Below, in pieces: positions 8,852-22,049 of a DNA stretch of 64,000 nucleotides; within the stretch, counting starts at the first letter, position 1; every line of letters begins with the position of its first letter. Made by a program: the position numbers and the translations under genes. Location of the stretch: positions 2,096,001 through 2,160,000 of the forward strand of contig NZ_JAMXSR020000002.1 in the NCBI RefSeq assembly GCF_024124765.2, read 5' to 3'. Below the pieces are notes generated by a model. That model was not told where the DNA came from. It searched no databases and worked only from the letters and a program-made list of their open reading frames with translations. This DNA comes from Sphingomonas sp. H160509 (GTDB lineage Bacteria; Pseudomonadota; Alphaproteobacteria; Sphingomonadales; Sphingomonadaceae).

Positions 8852-10884
<2,033 letters not shown>

Positions 10885-16705: not shown

Positions 16706-19063
16706 ATGCCGACCCTCCCTTCTGCCGCGCGCCTCCTGTTGATCGGCACGTGCCTGACGTCGGCAATCATGACGCATGCAAAGGCCGATCCGCTCGCGAC
16801 GCTCGACCGCAACGGAAGCCTCGTCGCGATCGAGCCCTATGCGCCGAACATCGTCCGGGTCACCATCTCGCTCGACCGCGCGCTGGCCGATGCGCCACCG
16901 GGCGAAGGCCCCGACGCCAAGTCGGACGCGACTGGCTGGGCGCATCGCACAGATGCAAGCGGCGACGTATTCGCCTCAAGCGCAATGGCGTTGACGGTAA
17001 AGGCGCAGCCCTGGCCCAAGGCACCGTCGCAGATGCAACGCTATTTCGCGCCGTCGCTGCCACCCGTGTCCATCGCCGTGCGCAAGGCCGATGGTTCGAC
17101 GATCGCCGAGATGACCGGCTGGGAGATGTCGCCGCAGACCGTCAATGGCGAGAAGACGTTCCGCGTCGGTGCGAGCTTCGCCGTGCAGCCTAACGAGCAT
17201 TATTACGGGCTCGGCCAGAACCAGGAAGGCGTGCTCGATTTCAAGGGCCGGACGATCGATTGCCGCCATAATTACGACGCGCCTGCGGGCGAAACGGTGT
17301 GCGTGCCGTTCATGGTCACCAACAAGGGCTACGGCATCGTCTGGGACAACCCATCGGCGACCACCGTTTCCCCCGGCCTGTCAAACTCGACGCATTGGCA
17401 GTCGAACGTAGGCGAGCGCGTGTCGTTCTTCGTCATCACCGGCAACACCACCGACGAACTCTACGCCGGTTATGCCAAGCTGACCGGCGCGACGCCGCTG
17501 CCGCCAAAGGCCGCATTCGGGCTGATCCAGTCGAAGGCGCGCTACGAGACGCAGGCCGAACTGCTCGGAGTCGCCAACGGCTATCGCAAGCGCGGCCTGC
17601 CGCTCGACGTGATGGTGCTCGACTGGTTCTACTGGACGCGAATGGGCCAGCTCGACATCGACCGGACCTACTTCCCCGATCCCAAGGGCATGAACGACAC
17701 GCTGAAGAGCATGGGGATGCATTCGATCATCAGCGTGTGGCCGCGGTTCGAGAAGGAATCACGCTATTTCAACTTCCTCGGCACCAAGGGGTGGCTGCTG
17801 AAGGACAAGGACGGCGGCGTGGTGGACGGCCTGCCGATCCGTTCGGACCGTGCCGGCGCGCTGCTCGATTCGACCAATCCGGATGCGCGCGGCTGGTTCT
17901 GGGACCGGATCCGCGACAATATCGCGAGCCAGGGCTTCGACTGGTTTTGGCTCGACGAGACCGAGCCGGATCTCGTGCCGGACGGCAATTTCTTCTCGAT
18001 CGGGTCGGGCGACCGGTATCACAACCTCTATCCGCTGGTGCACACCAACAGTGTCGCGGAAGGCTCCGCGCGCGACCGGCCCGACTTCCGCAACCTGATC
18101 CTCGCGCGAGCCGCCTATCTTGGGACGCAGCGGAACGGCGCGCTGTTCTGGTCGTCGGACGTGCAGGCGAACTGGGAAACGCTGCACCGCCAGGTTCCCG
18201 CGGGGCTCGGCTTTACGGCGACCGGCATGGCGTATTGGAGCAGCGACACCGGCGGCTGGCAGTATCCGAACGGGCCGAAGGCGGAGCATGCGCCGTTGCT
18301 CGATCCGGGGGGTGCGACCGCGATGTCACCGAGCTACACCGACTATCCCGAACTGTTCACGCGCTGGTTCGCGTATAACAGCTTCACGCCGACGCTGCGC
18401 ATTCACGGCCAGCGTCCGGCGACGGCGATCTGGGATTATGGTGCGGCGGCCGAACCGGTGCTCGCAGGCTTTCTGAAGCTGCGATATGCGCTGATCCCGT
18501 ATCTCTATTCGCTCGGCTATCAGACCTACAAGACGGGCGCACCGTTCATGCGCGCGCTGTTCATGGACTTTCCGAACGACTCCGCCGTCGCAACGATCGG
18601 CGACGAATATATGTTCGGCCCGGCCTTCCTGGTCGCGCCGGTCACGGAACAAGGCGCCACCAGTCGCAAGGTCTATCTGCCGGCCGGGTCGGAATGGTAT
18701 GATTATTGGACGGATCAGCGGTTTGCCGGTGGTCAGACGATCGTCGCCGCGACTCCGATCGACCGCATTCCGCTGTTCGTCCGCGCGGGTTCGATCGTGC
18801 CGATGGGCGTGCAGGTGCCGAGCACTGCGACGAAGCAGGCGCTCGAGACGATCAAGGTCTATCCCGGCCGTAACGCGAGCTTCACGCTGTACGACGATGA
18901 CGGCGTGACCAATGGTTACAAGAAGGGCAGCGGATCCAGCGCTGTTCTTCGCTGGAACGATGCCGAGAAGACATTGACCACGTCCGGCCCCCTGCCGACC
19001 CGCCAGGCGGTCAATACGCTGGTGAAGATCGTGACGCCGCGCCAGCCGGCGGCGGCACGCTAG
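16706..19063 (+). CDS. Secreted glycoside hydrolase family 31 (alpha-glucosidase or alpha-xylosidase)
   Basis: A complete 785-residue protein with an N-terminal signal peptide (RLLLIGTCLTSAIMTHAKA), an N-terminal beta-sandwich, a TIM barrel and C-terminal beta domains. WFWLDETEPD places the likely nucleophile at Asp417, and YWSSDTGGW places the likely acid/base at Asp514; LDVMVLDWFYW is another barrel signature. GH31 enzymes cleave alpha-linked glucosyl or xylosyl residues; the LDETEP form is nearer alpha-xylosidase/oligosaccharide enzymes, but substrate cannot be fixed. No TonB receptor or other carbohydrate gene is adjacent. The frame is intact and a strong hairpin follows. Confidence 0.9.
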   Translation: MPTLPSAARLLLIGTCLTSAIMTHAKADPLATLDRNGSLVAIEPYAPNIVRVTISLDRALADAPPGEGPDAKSDATGWAHRTDASGDVFASSAMALTVKAQPWPKAPSQMQRYFAPSLPPVSIAVRKADGSTIAEMTGWEMSPQTVNGEKTFRVGASFAVQPNEHYYGLGQNQEGVLDFKGRTIDCRHNYDAPAGETVCVPFMVTNKGYGIVWDNPSATTVSPGLSNSTHWQSNVGERVSFFVITGNTTDELYAGYAKLTGATPLPPKAAFGLIQSKARYETQAELLGVANGYRKRGLPLDVMVLDWFYWTRMGQLDIDRTYFPDPKGMNDTLKSMGMHSIISVWPRFEKESRYFNFLGTKGWLLKDKDGGVVDGLPIRSDRAGALLDSTNPDARGWFWDRIRDNIASQGFDWFWLDETEPDLVPDGNFFSIGSGDRYHNLYPLVHTNSVAEGSARDRPDFRNLILARAAYLGTQRNGALFWSSDVQANWETLHRQVPAGLGFTATGMAYWSSDTGGWQYPNGPKAEHAPLLDPGGATAMSPSYTDYPELFTRWFAYNSFTPTLRIHGQRPATAIWDYGAAAEPVLAGFLKLRYALIPYLYSLGYQTYKTGAPFMRALFMDFPNDSAVATIGDEYMFGPAFLVAPVTEQGATSRKVYLPAGSEWYDYWTDQRFAGGQTIVAATPIDRIPLFVRAGSIVPMGVQVPSTATKQALETIKVYPGRNASFTLYDDDGVTNGYKKGSGSSAVLRWNDAEKTLTTSGPLPTRQAVNTLVKIVTPRQPAAAR

Positions 19064-19127: not shown

Positions 19128-19529
19128 CTACGCGTCGATCAGGCGACCCAGCAGGTTCGCCATGCGCAGTCGACCGAGCGCGGTTAACTGAACATGCGAT
19201 CGGCGGCCGTCGCGCGCGTCGCGAATGCGTTCGACCAGATCCGCTTCCTGCAACATCGTCAGATAGCGTAGCGCGGTGGCCGACGGCGCGCGTGCGCCGA
19301 TGCAGACCGCCGAGACGCTCAGCCGGCGCTGCTCGTGTTCCGAAATGAACAGGTCGAGCAGGATGTCCCAGGCAGGTTCCGAGAACAGCGCGTCGCCGAG
19401 CATCGCATCCCGGACCTTGCGGAGTTCGTACAGCCGCCGGGCCATATCGACCAGAACGGTATCCGATACGGCGAACGGCGTCGCGCGCTTGGCGATATTG
19501 ATCGGCGCCATGGCAAGTGCGTAAGTCAT
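19128..19529 (-). CDS. MarR-like winged-helix regulator
   Basis: A 133-residue protein with a winged-helix core: EPAWDILLDLFISEHEQRRLSVSAVCIGARAPSA as helices leading to recognition helix ATALRYLTMLQEADLVERI, then a wing with RDARDGRRSHVQLTALGR. It resembles small MarR-type DNA-binding proteins. GGAAG precedes the ATG. It lies 19 bases after a 4-TM protein gene, so it is the last gene of the cassette that begins at 21057. Ligand and targets are unknown. Confidence 0.75.
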   Translation of the reverse strand: MTYALAMAPINIAKRATPFAVSDTVLVDMARRLYELRKVRDAMLGDALFSEPAWDILLDLFISEHEQRRLSVSAVCIGARAPSATALRYLTMLQEADLVERIRDARDGRRSHVQLTALGRLRMANLLGRLIDA

Positions 19530-19548
19530 AAACGTCTTCCGAATTCGC

Positions 19549-20007
19549 TTATCGGATCGTGCGGTCCTGGCGACTCCAGTCGAGATCCCAGCCCTGGGCC
19601 TGGATCCGCCGCGAATGCCTGACCGTCCCGATCACGAGAAGCAGAACGATGGGATAACTCCAGACGGCAGAGAGGACGGCGTAGACGAGCCGGATGACGT
19701 CGGGGCTGATCGCCTTGGCCAGATGAGCCCCCGTCCCCAATGCGTGGAGCGCGGTGACCCAGGCTGGCCAGAAGCGATCGGCATGCAACGTGATCATGAT
19801 CATCACGACAAGCAGGATCAGGTCGACGACCATGACACCGACCTCCATCCCGGCGAACAATACCGGGATGTCGCGCTGGATGACGCTGGTGGAAAGCGCT
19901 GCCAGCAACAGGGCCAGGCCCGTCAACCGCTCCGGTGCCCCGCCCCGCAGGAGCGCGTAGCCGGACGCGGTCAACTGTATCGCGTAGAACACCCAGACCC
20001 GATCCAA
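19549..20007 (-). CDS. Four-TM membrane protein, unknown function
   Basis: A 152-residue protein with about four hydrophobic helices: near 4-20, 28-40, 52-76 (EVGVMVVDLILLVVMIMITL) and 107-127 (LVYAVLSAVWSYPIVLLLVIG). It ends in a charged tail (RHSRRIQAQGWDLDWSRQDR). The TTG start is supported by GGAGG at the right distance. No domain is recognised. It lies between the 123-residue helical protein (32-base gap) and the MarR-like gene, and may be the membrane partner of the HTH protein. Confidence 0.7.
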   Translation of the reverse strand: MDRVWVFYAIQLTASGYALLRGGAPERLTGLALLLAALSTSVIQRDIPVLFAGMEVGVMVVDLILLVVMIMITLHADRFWPAWVTALHALGTGAHLAKAISPDVIRLVYAVLSAVWSYPIVLLLVIGTVRHSRRIQAQGWDLDWSRQDRTIR

Positions 20008-20039
20008 CTCTTACCTCCGCAGGACCGTCAGCCGGTCGT

Positions 20040-20411
20040 TCAGGCGACCGCGGCCAGATGGAACGGCGTGTCGAAGTCGGCTCCCACCCGCAGCGCGCCC
20101 TCGTTCGGCGGGCATTCCGCGGTATCGCCGTAGCCGTAGAACTGGCCGAGACCGATCTCGGTACGGACGTCGACCAGCGCACGGTGCGCTTCAATGAAGC
20201 GCTGCCGAACGGCGACCATCTCGAACGACGCCTGCGAGACCATCTGCAACGCCGCGGCGCCGGTGCCGAGCGGCAGGTTCGCAGCGACGCGTTGCTGCAT
20301 CAGCGTTGCCATACACGAGGCTGTGAGCATCGCAGCCTTGTCGACTGCCGCCTCTGCCTCGAGAAAGTCATTGGCTACCCTGTCGGCAGCGCGGCGGCGT
20401 TCTCTCAACAT
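20040..20411 (-). CDS. Alpha-helical protein of 123 residues, unknown function
   Basis: The protein is mostly predicted helix: a charged N-terminus (LRERRRAADRVANDFLEAEAAV), then Ala/Met/Gln-rich helices and a C-terminal GLGQFYGYGDTAECPPNEGAL segment. No signal peptide or membrane helix is seen. GGGGGAGGA precedes the ATG at 20411. The start overlaps the 3' end of the upstream HTH gene by 44 bases, so expression of the two is tightly linked. No family is recognised. Confidence 0.7.
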   Translation of the reverse strand: MLRERRRAADRVANDFLEAEAAVDKAAMLTASCMATLMQQRVAANLPLGTGAAALQMVSQASFEMVAVRQRFIEAHRALVDVRTEIGLGQFYGYGDTAECPPNEGALRVGADFDTPFHLAAVA

Positions 20412-21057
20412 CGAAATTCCTCCCCCTTGGCACCGACGTTGCGGCGCCGTGTACGGGAGCGCTCTGGTCTCGGTTCGATCGTAACAGCGTCGTCAACGTC
20501 ATCGCCATGTTGACGACCGCCATCGACGTGAAGGCAATCAGTCCCATGAGTGCGAGCAGTCGAAATATCCTGTCGCCGATCGAAAACCGGTTGCGCGCCA
20601 CCCCCGTCAATCCGCTGCCACCGGATAACCCGAGGAAGCGGCGAACAAACCCCCGCGGCTCGCTCTGATCACTGCTTGCAGGCTTGGAGGGGCCGGGGGG
20701 AACGTCGAGTGGTTCGGATGGTAGCCGTTCGTACGCGGCGGCCGGGTCGGAAAGTGATGCTGGCTCGGCACGGGCGGCGGGGTAGGTGGGAAGGCGGTCG
20801 CGAACGAGCAGGGCGTCTTCGGCCCCACCGCGCTCGTGCTCCTGCAGGCGACGCGCCGCCTCGAACCGCGTCCCGACGCCGAGGATCTGGATCGCACGCT
20901 CGATCCGCTTGTCGATCGCGGACGGCGACACGCCGACGATCAGCGCGATCTCCTTCGAGTTGTGATGGGTCAGTACGAGCCGGAGACAGGCGCGTTGGGC
21001 TTCGGTCAACTGATCGATGCGTCCTGCGGTCATGGCGCGATGGTAGCGGGAACCCAT
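20368..21057 (-). CDS. LuxR-type HTH protein with C-terminal membrane anchor
   Basis: A 229-residue protein. The LuxR/GerE-like four-helix HTH lies at about 15-70 (LTEAQRACLRLVL, NSKEIALIVGVSPSAIDKRI). A Pro/Ser-rich linker follows (about 90-140), then one transmembrane helix near 168-190 (LLALMGLIAFTSMAVVNMAM). There is no receiver or autoinducer domain, so this looks like a membrane-tethered one-component regulator. GGAAGGTG upstream supports the ATG at 21057. It heads the cassette and faces the lipoprotein hydrolase gene across about 120 bases. Confidence 0.8.
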   Translation of the reverse strand: MGSRYHRAMTAGRIDQLTEAQRACLRLVLTHHNSKEIALIVGVSPSAIDKRIERAIQILGVGTRFEAARRLQEHERGGAEDALLVRDRLPTYPAARAEPASLSDPAAAYERLPSEPLDVPPGPSKPASSDQSEPRGFVRRFLGLSGGSGLTGVARNRFSIGDRIFRLLALMGLIAFTSMAVVNMAMTLTTLLRSNRDQSAPVHGAATSVPRGRNFDVERTPPRCRQGSQ

Positions 21058-21178
21058 GACGGTTGCACCTTCCGCGTGAGAGCGGAAGAAACTGAATTAC
21101 AAACCTCTGAATTGGAAAGAATTTCTGGAGCCCAGTCGACGGACAGATCCTAGTATCGGCCCAAATAGAGAGGGTGCG

Positions 21179-22049
21179 ATGATCGATGCTGCGGCAAACG
21201 CCAGGCTGGGCCTGCGCGTGGGGGAAAAGCAACGACTGAGGCGGGGCGGATTTCCACTGATTGCGGCGGCAATACTGTCCACGATGCTTACTGGTTGCGT
21301 CAATCCGGTTGGCCGTTCGCTGTACCAGCCTGCCCCGCTCGCGGCGACGCCGATATGGACCGGACGGACGCCGAGGCTGATCGAAGCAATCGCGGCTGAC
21401 GGAGTTCATTTGCAGGGGCTGGTTCTGGCCGCCGGAAACACCGGACGGCGCGGTGCTGATCTATGTCCCAGGACGTGCGGGCAATCGCGACATCGCAGCG
21501 AGGGCCGCGCAGGCCTTCGCCCGTGACGGCCGAGGCGTGCTCGTCGCGTCGTATCGAGGCTATGGCGATAATCCGGGTGTTCCGGACGAACGCGGACTTT
21601 ACTAGGATGGCCGCGCGTTCGTGGATTTGGCGGAACGGCTGGTGCCAGACGGCAAGCACTTCCTGTTTGGCGACGGACTCGGTGCCGCAGTGGCGTTGCA
21701 CGTGGCCGCGGATCCATCGGCTGGAACAAGCGTCGACGGAGTCGTGACGCTCGGCGCGTTCGACTCTTTCGATCGGTTCGTGCCGAGTGTTGCGCGGGGG
21801 TTGTATGCGGATGCGTTCGACAATGCCGCGGCCATCCGGCGCGTGAAGGTGCCGGTGCTGCTAATGCATGGCCGCAAGGACGAGATCGTCCCGTTCGCGG
21901 CGGCGGAGCGGTTGCGTGCGGCGGCCGGCGGGAAGGCGATCGTCGTGCCGATCGACGGCGAGGCGTATCACAGCTTCGATTTGAGCCACATCGCGCCGGT
22001 GTGGCGAGCGCTGGACCAGATTGCGGCGGAGGAGGCGGTGGCCAAGTAG
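21179..22049 (+). pseudogene. Alpha/beta-hydrolase lipoprotein, disrupted by a frameshift and a stop codon
   Basis: The N-terminus has a lipobox (MLTGCVNP) after a hydrophobic stretch, so it is a predicted lipoprotein. The hydrolase core is visible: VLIYVPGRAGNRD, a FGDGLGAAVAL nucleophile-elbow-like turn with Asp in place of Ser, VLLMHGRKDEIVPF (acid) and YHSFDLSH (His). Four G at 21415-21418 are one too many, and in the repaired frame a TAG lies at 21603-21605 after DERGLY. The frameshift may be an error, but the TAG needs a separate substitution. Without these the protein would have about 289 residues. Confidence 0.65.

Follow-up and report, generated by a model that had tools for sequence, protein, structure and literature searches.

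Co-component systems of transmembrane transcription regulators (TTRs), for example those of ToxR and TcpP, consist of a TTR and an associated protein, and the single-pass TTR is described as the commonest form (PMC10269533). In E. coli, CadC is held inactive by the permease LysP, according to PMC6320335. In the LytTR regulatory systems (LRS), of which HdrRM and BrsRM are examples, a membrane protein inhibits the regulator that is encoded with it; as portrayed in PMC6193735, many LRS copies are uncharacterised, and LRS-like operons of Bacteroides have regulators with TM segments.

These systems were compared with a cassette of four genes, A to D, from Sphingomonas sp. H160509. The window, which is the whole stretch of 64,000 nucleotides that was analysed, lies on contig C1 of an assembly of 4.8 Mb in 5 contigs with an estimated completeness of 80.57%. 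Two further cassettes are present in the same genome, one on contig C5 (L004) and one elsewhere on C1 (L005). The closest named relative at the cassette locus is Sphingomonas sp. Leaf208 (L085), whose A protein is 96% identical to that of the window.

Gene layout and the junction of A and B

All four open reading frames were found on the minus strand in the order that a previous, sequence-only reading had given. Gene A (20368-21057, minus strand) encodes an HTH of the GerE/sigma-r4 type followed by a low-complexity Pro-rich linker and a predicted C-terminal TM helix; gene B (20040-20411, minus strand) encodes a protein of 123 amino acids that is predicted to form a two-helix hairpin and in which no signal peptide was seen by eye; gene C (19549-20007, minus strand), which begins with a TTG codon, encodes a polytopic membrane protein of 152 amino acids; and gene D (19128-19529, minus strand), which encodes a MarR-like winged-helix protein, often closes the cassette but is optional. 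Searches of Pfam and NCBIfam found no receiver, kinase or known ligand domain in the cassette proteins, as had been noted from the sequence, and the HTH of A and the winged HTH of D were the only parts to receive a usable name from these collections.

Judging from an alignment, the true start of A is likely the methionine codon at 21033. Just 5' of it is a promoter-like block, GGTGCAAC-N14-GCTACCAT (21040-21069, minus strand), which is probably the promoter of A. The block was largely conserved in 18 aligned sequences, least so in L104 and L105, while the sequence further 5' diverged among them. The exact pattern occurred a single time in the genome, so no regulon was obtained from it. Just upstream of the block, at 21092-21118, there is an imperfect 12-nt direct repeat (83%, 15 nt from start to start), which only the nearest relatives recognisably share. 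Upstream of 78 distinct cassettes, k-mers and dyads were not above shuffled sequences in a search for a shared operator; perfect 7-base inverted repeats were found upstream of 25 of the 78 cassettes, compared with 10.6 (sd 5.1) in shuffles.

It had also been proposed that B is a helical protein and that its gene overlaps that of A. The helical part agreed with the structure model, which gave a hairpin. The overlap was set aside, because in most of the closest named loci, 17 of 21 (L085-L105, the best 21 of 38), a single reading frame runs through A and B without a break, and because the window is rich in indels. In the other four of these loci (L097, L098, L099 and L103), A stops just before the ATG of B. 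The 3' frame boundary of A at 20368 hinges on a doubtful G-run at 20422-20426, which has five Gs in the window compared with four in the nearest relatives; the extra G lies inside the Shine-Dalgarno-like run of B, GGGGGAGG (20419-20426, minus strand), and shifts A out of frame with B. In comparison with four close relatives, reading frames between 8800 and 31100 of the window were split by many single-base indels. Stop-to-stop open reading frames of L085-L088, some of which are not genes, were each spread over at least two frames in the window, for example at about 9570, 10184, 10902, 13422, 14545, 20422, 21416, 25435 and 26213, and an alpha/beta hydrolase frame at 21179-22049 was among those broken. 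Such a high density of frame breaks points to assembly indels, and the assembly of the window probably has homopolymer errors, so that the reading frames there need caution. The apparent overlap of A and B is probably an indel artefact of the assembly over a continuous A-B frame. The five-G state could be a true strain variant; L097, L098, L099 and L103 carry five Gs too, together with the stop just before B.

The same relatives differed next to the cassette. A glycosidase gene at 16706-19063 of the window, GH31-like by eye, was covered by the match of L085, and about 2.07 kb of it was absent from L086, L087 and L088, in which the match jumped from about 16953 to 19026.

Read-through of the continuous A-B frame would place B on the far side of the membrane, a position that suits a cytoplasmic adaptor badly. 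In that case A and B would be one receptor in this clade, similar to ToxR, with B as its extracytoplasmic sensor domain. The single frame in most of the closest loci is what such a receptor would require, and the joint between A and B had no stop codon even where identity to L085 dropped to 55% (L105). However, all 17 fused loci kept the G-rich Shine-Dalgarno-like run and the ATG of B, features that B in the window has as well, and other lineages have a separate B gene in which no signal peptide was seen by eye. Moreover, the joint was as loosely constrained (pN/pS 0.69) as the linker (0.71), whereas the HTH (0.28), the TM segment (0.37) and B (0.24) were under stronger constraint. We therefore consider a fused receptor improbable.

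Conservation of the A-B-C order

The claim that the genes stay together in relatives held, with A, B and C as the core and D as an optional member. With A as the query, 42 of 151 genomes of the genus had a match at 1e-10. Among the 36 best A loci, 32 had A, B and C in order, and 29 of these 32 also had D; the other four (L002, L003, L006 and L007), which were recovered at E up to 1, were other HTH proteins, encoded in the same genome as the window. C was found in at least 176 of 298 genomes of the family (Sphingomonadaceae) and in 60 of 96 genera (1e-4), in at least 82 of 196 genomes of the order (1e-4), and in at least 6 of 385 genomes of the class (1e-3), two of the six being outside the family. 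These counts of C are lower bounds, because scoring was limited to the 10-20 best candidates in each genome. All 28 of the loci at the best new C places (L049-L076) carried A and B upstream.

B was found in 158 of the same 298 family genomes and in 58 of the 96 genera. Among the matches listed, C lay no more than 400 bp downstream on the same strand in at least 112 of 150 B places, and the median B-C gap among the B and C places listed was 97. Ten of the 38 B places with no listed C, and one of the 38 C places with no listed B, were inspected, and all 11 turned out to be A-B-C cassettes with one diverged member. These data indicated that the gene order is conserved in relatives, which excludes a chance arrangement.

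Outside the family, one genome contained B-B-C-C (L142, 8940-10719) with no A detected beside it; the same genome had A and C with no detected B at another locus (L046) and an ordinary A-B-C cassette elsewhere (L047). The B-B-C-C group was followed by a gene that by eye resembles an XRE/S24-type repressor. The second genome outside the family had B-B-C at L040, a locus with short flanks, also with no A detected beside it. Some genomes held several, diverged copies of the cassette.

D was confirmed as MarR-like: its winged helix scored above the cut-off of Pfam HTH_27 (24.8 bits versus 22.2), and chains of the MarR family in the PDB matched it with a best E of 1.7e-8. The 3' side of C held D, a gene for a RadC-like JAB protein, both of these or neither, the JAB gene standing in place of D or preceding it. 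The JAB gene was present in 36 of 138 chains, a count in which overlapping loci enter some places at least twice and short flanks hide genes. JAB and D were fused in two plasmids (L080:9503-10345 and L082:9630-10415). In L083, the region that matched D sits in a protein with a MazE-type domain, ahead of a VapC gene. Apart from JAB and D, no neighbour held a fixed place across lineages in 49 representative loci and the window, a survey that used heuristic gene calls, included some loci that are the same place twice, and discounted the local synteny of close relatives.

Tree distances were correlated among the cassette proteins. For 56 loci, rho was 0.40 for A and B, 0.41 for A and C and 0.48 for B and C, with none of 2000 permutations as high. 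The correlations of D were weak in 34 loci (0.16 with A, 0.12 with B and 0.25 with C), and 184, 321 and 34 of 2000 permutations, respectively, were as high. JAB correlated with A, B and C at 0.51, 0.41 and 0.45 in 24 loci (1, 7 and 8 of 2000 permutations). This indicates a constant A-B-C unit, with JAB optional but seemingly travelling along and D the most loosely attached. Because JAB correlates about as well, tree correlation does not set A, B and C apart, and the correlations among these three may reflect shared descent rather than contact.

A proposed membrane-to-gene switch and other readings of the cassette

The architecture that had been read from the sequence of A, an N-terminal HTH, a Pro-rich linker and a C-terminal hydrophobic helix, was recovered with Pfam, PDB profiles, hydropathy and a structure model. 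The HTH matched Pfam Sigma70_r4_2 above the cut-off (E 3.7e-7, 30.1 bits versus 25.7) and GerE below it (E 0.0028, 17.7 bits versus 23.5). The top PDB profile match of A was GerE (1fse), and the Foldseek rows for A were LuxR-type HTHs, none of which reached E 0.001. A continuous A-B model of L085 (AlphaFold2, 32 sequences, mean pLDDT 76.1, pTM 0.37) showed the HTH and an extended helix over 152-190, and folded B as a two-helix hairpin.

Membrane anchoring of A, which was part of the same reading, is likewise predicted here: when 78 A proteins, made non-redundant by a k-mer cut, were scored for hydropathy beyond residue 60, a C-terminal TM segment was predicted in 74. Sixty-eight of these had one such segment and six had two, and the remaining four of the 78 were fragments from L058, L068 and L109, three loci whose A is divided between two frames. 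The tail beyond the first TM window was short in the 72 unfused A proteins, with a median of 16 residues and a 90th percentile of 22.9. Mean charge was 1.4 in the 15 residues before the TM segment and 0.4 in the 15 after it; it was higher before the segment in 44 of the 74 proteins, equal in 14 and lower in 16. The more positive charge before the segment mildly favours a cytoplasmic HTH. Since next to none of A extends beyond the membrane, sensing falls by elimination to C, to B or to the membrane, and the signal probably enters through one of these.

Two proteins of the same genome, encoded at L002:511-1902 and L003:1420-2367, combined a related HTH with a hydrophobic segment and extensive C-terminal parts, and that of L003 matched NtrY_N. 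They may be sensor-bearing relatives of A.

C had been read as a protein with four TM helices, and the structure model (AlphaFold2, 27 sequences, mean pLDDT 82.7, pTM 0.79) instead predicted five helices of membrane-spanning length. Its conserved stretches included RGGxPER and RFWPxW. In a scan of 21 members, no convincing Pfam or PHROG family was found for C. The C profile gave weak matches only against PDB sequences (best E 0.73), and Foldseek with the C model returned no match at E 0.001 or below, which is not proof of a new fold. VIA-align rows for C were generic helix bundles, with Z of at most 10.4 compared with the value of about 13 that is advised for helical bundles. Cytochrome b561, with Z 8.4, was below that value as well and was rejected as a relative of C.

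A scan of 21 members likewise gave no convincing Pfam or PHROG family for B. DUF6244 (best E 0.0025, three of the 21 members) and phrog_4039 (E 0.0072, one of the 21) were judged to be chance matches of a coiled-coil protein, and the B profile had weak matches at most among PDB sequences (best E 0.073). Thus, two of the three core proteins had no family model that we found, though both are widespread in the family.

It is a reasonable inference that the four-gene set serves as a signalling route, as had been suggested. Our preferred reading, to which we give a probability of about one half, is that A-B-C is a self-contained membrane-to-gene switch in which a membrane-tethered transcription factor is gated by a polytopic partner. 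A would be a tail-anchored transcription factor, with a cytoplasmic GerE-type HTH on a flexible linker and a TM helix. As no sensor domain can be recognised in A, its activity would most likely be set in the membrane by C, the putative five-helix integral membrane protein, and the hairpin of B may serve as a cytoplasmic adaptor or assembly factor. Only on release by C or B would the DNA-binding domains of A be able to dimerise on an operator, which may be the cassette's own promoter and perhaps other sites as well. D and the RadC-like JAB protein would be optional add-ons. Against this reading speak the lack of a shared operator upstream of the 78 distinct cassettes, the absence of LRS-like direct repeats above chance, the tree correlation of JAB, and the B-B-C-C and B-B-C groups with no detected A, although one of the two genomes has an A-B-C cassette elsewhere. 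If the switch operates as proposed, it would be a minimal case of reading the membrane with no sensor domain, its transcription factor having only a bare anchor and a polytopic partner of its own.

A-B-C was found on chromosomes, on plasmids and in P2-like prophages, so labelled from their tail genes. C matched ten plasmid records of Sphingomonas, Sphingopyxis, Sphingobium and Blastomonas, and A-B-C was present in all seven of those that were inspected. On plasmid L080 the cassette lies between trb and mobF genes, and on a Sphingomonas parapaucimobilis plasmid (L081, NZ_CP155752.1) it lies in a prophage, flanked by a repressor-like gene on one side and tail genes on the other. A phage record from human faeces (L077, MT835592.1) begins inside a cassette and contains B-C-D and P2-like tail genes; its C is 99.4% identical to that of the L081 prophage, which suggests a sphingomonad host for this phage. 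Directly after the L081 cassette is a DUF2939-type gene (9978-10478) that matched the PADLOC candidate PDC-S55 at E 7.9e-36, and a gene similar to it by eye was seen at 1556-2143 of L077. Two other plasmid cassettes, L079 and L083, had lasso-peptide genes (isopeptidase, TonB receptor and FecR) no more than about 10 kb away, which was taken as coincidence. Sphingomonads are known for pollutant degradation and plant association, and carriage of the cassette on plasmids and prophages suggests a role in the mobile-element biology of these bacteria.

Mobile carriage bears on a different reading, in which C is the effector, A (with D) regulates it, and the whole is mobile membrane cargo for superinfection or entry exclusion or for phage defence. 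The position between trb and mobF and the prophage copies (L081 and L077) would suit such cargo, as would the neighbouring match to a candidate defence model. C sometimes occurs in tandem (four copies in L133, two each in L136, L140 and L142), and within the window's genome the three copies of C share only about 30% identity. Yet no model of the 2023 PADLOC release matched A, B or C of the window at E 0.1, D having weak matches with a best E of 0.0069; a soluble repressor would do for such a cargo, which leaves the membrane anchoring of A unexplained; and several copies are on multi-megabase contigs, away from obvious mobile genes. We regard C as effector as possible, though on the unlikely side. 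Somewhat more speculative is a further reading: A-B-C, with JAB, D or both, would be a mobile membrane-sensing unit of sphingomonads whose tail-anchored, sensorless factor reads the five-helix protein, and the unit may detect phage entry, mating or membrane damage. Were this unlikely reading true, conflict between mobile elements would be coupled to gene expression from the membrane.

Carriage on plasmids, prophages and chromosomes, together with an HTH on a bare TM helix, would also suit a protein that tethers DNA (a replicon, a prophage or a locus) to the membrane with C as the anchor site, rather than one that controls transcription. The frequent RadC-like neighbour is in keeping with this, the RadC family being thought to process nucleic acids (PMC5512222). 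On the other side, the HTH of A is of a type that belongs to transcription regulators, some genomes have several cassettes, and a partition-like gene was never recurrent beside the cassette in the heuristic gene calls of the 49 representative loci and the window. A tethering role is very improbable in our judgement, and the gated transcription factor remains the reading that we prefer.

Comparison with known membrane-linked regulators

The sequence-only reading had found no known system to which the cassette could be matched. That stood at the family level in Pfam, PHROGs, NCBIfam and PADLOC, and it did not stand at the level of class, because the cassette fits TTRs with co-components. The open-licence PMC literature, to which the search was confined with subscription journals outside its scope, gave no description of the A-B-C cassette.

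As in co-component TTRs (PMC10269533), A is predicted to have a DNA-binding domain and at least one TM region in one chain, and genes for candidate partners, B and C, adjoin the regulator gene. Unlike the co-component TTRs, A has almost no extracytoplasmic part, and the A-B-C unit is also found on plasmids and prophages. The partners differ as well, being a predicted helical hairpin and a five-helix membrane protein, whereas many of the associated proteins of known TTRs are described as lipocalin-like (PMC10269533).

The relationship of CadC and LysP resembles the one proposed for A and C, in that a transcription factor with a single TM segment is restrained by a polytopic membrane protein (PMC6320335). 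CadC, however, has a periplasmic sensory domain, which was not seen in A, and LysP is a transporter (PMC6320335), whereas C resembled no transporter family in Pfam or Foldseek. The HTH of CadC is also of a different type from that of A.

Like the LRS (PMC6193735), the cassette pairs a regulator gene with one for a membrane protein in what is probably a single operon, and neither system includes a kinase, a receiver or a recognised ligand domain; in the cassette the membrane protein is C, and its co-transcription with A is inferred from spacing. The regulators of LRS belong to the LytTR family and are soluble in the S. mutans type (PMC6193735), whereas Pfam identified a sigma-r4/GerE HTH in A. 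The direct repeats found upstream of LRS operons (PMC6193735) were not enriched at the cassettes: 9-mers at a distance of 9-14 nt with at least eight matching positions were present in 14 of 78 cassettes, compared with 10.3 (sd 3.0) in shuffled sequences, and the repeat at 21092-21118 of the window was outside this spacing.

Two features of ToxR-like receptors were also absent from A. The median tail of 16 residues leaves no periplasmic sensory domain after the TM segment, and it is doubtful that B serves as the sensor following A in the fused clade. The OmpR-type winged helix is the DNA-binding domain of ToxR-like receptors, and A matches an HTH of the sigma-r4/GerE type instead. Stand-alone regulators of the GerE/LuxR type share that HTH with A; GerE is a soluble single domain, to which A adds a linker and a TM segment. 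With features of TTRs present, and lacking features that define ToxR-like receptors and LytTR systems, the cassette is set apart within the TTR class: by its predicted membrane anchor it falls in this broad class, and it matches no known family that was found there.
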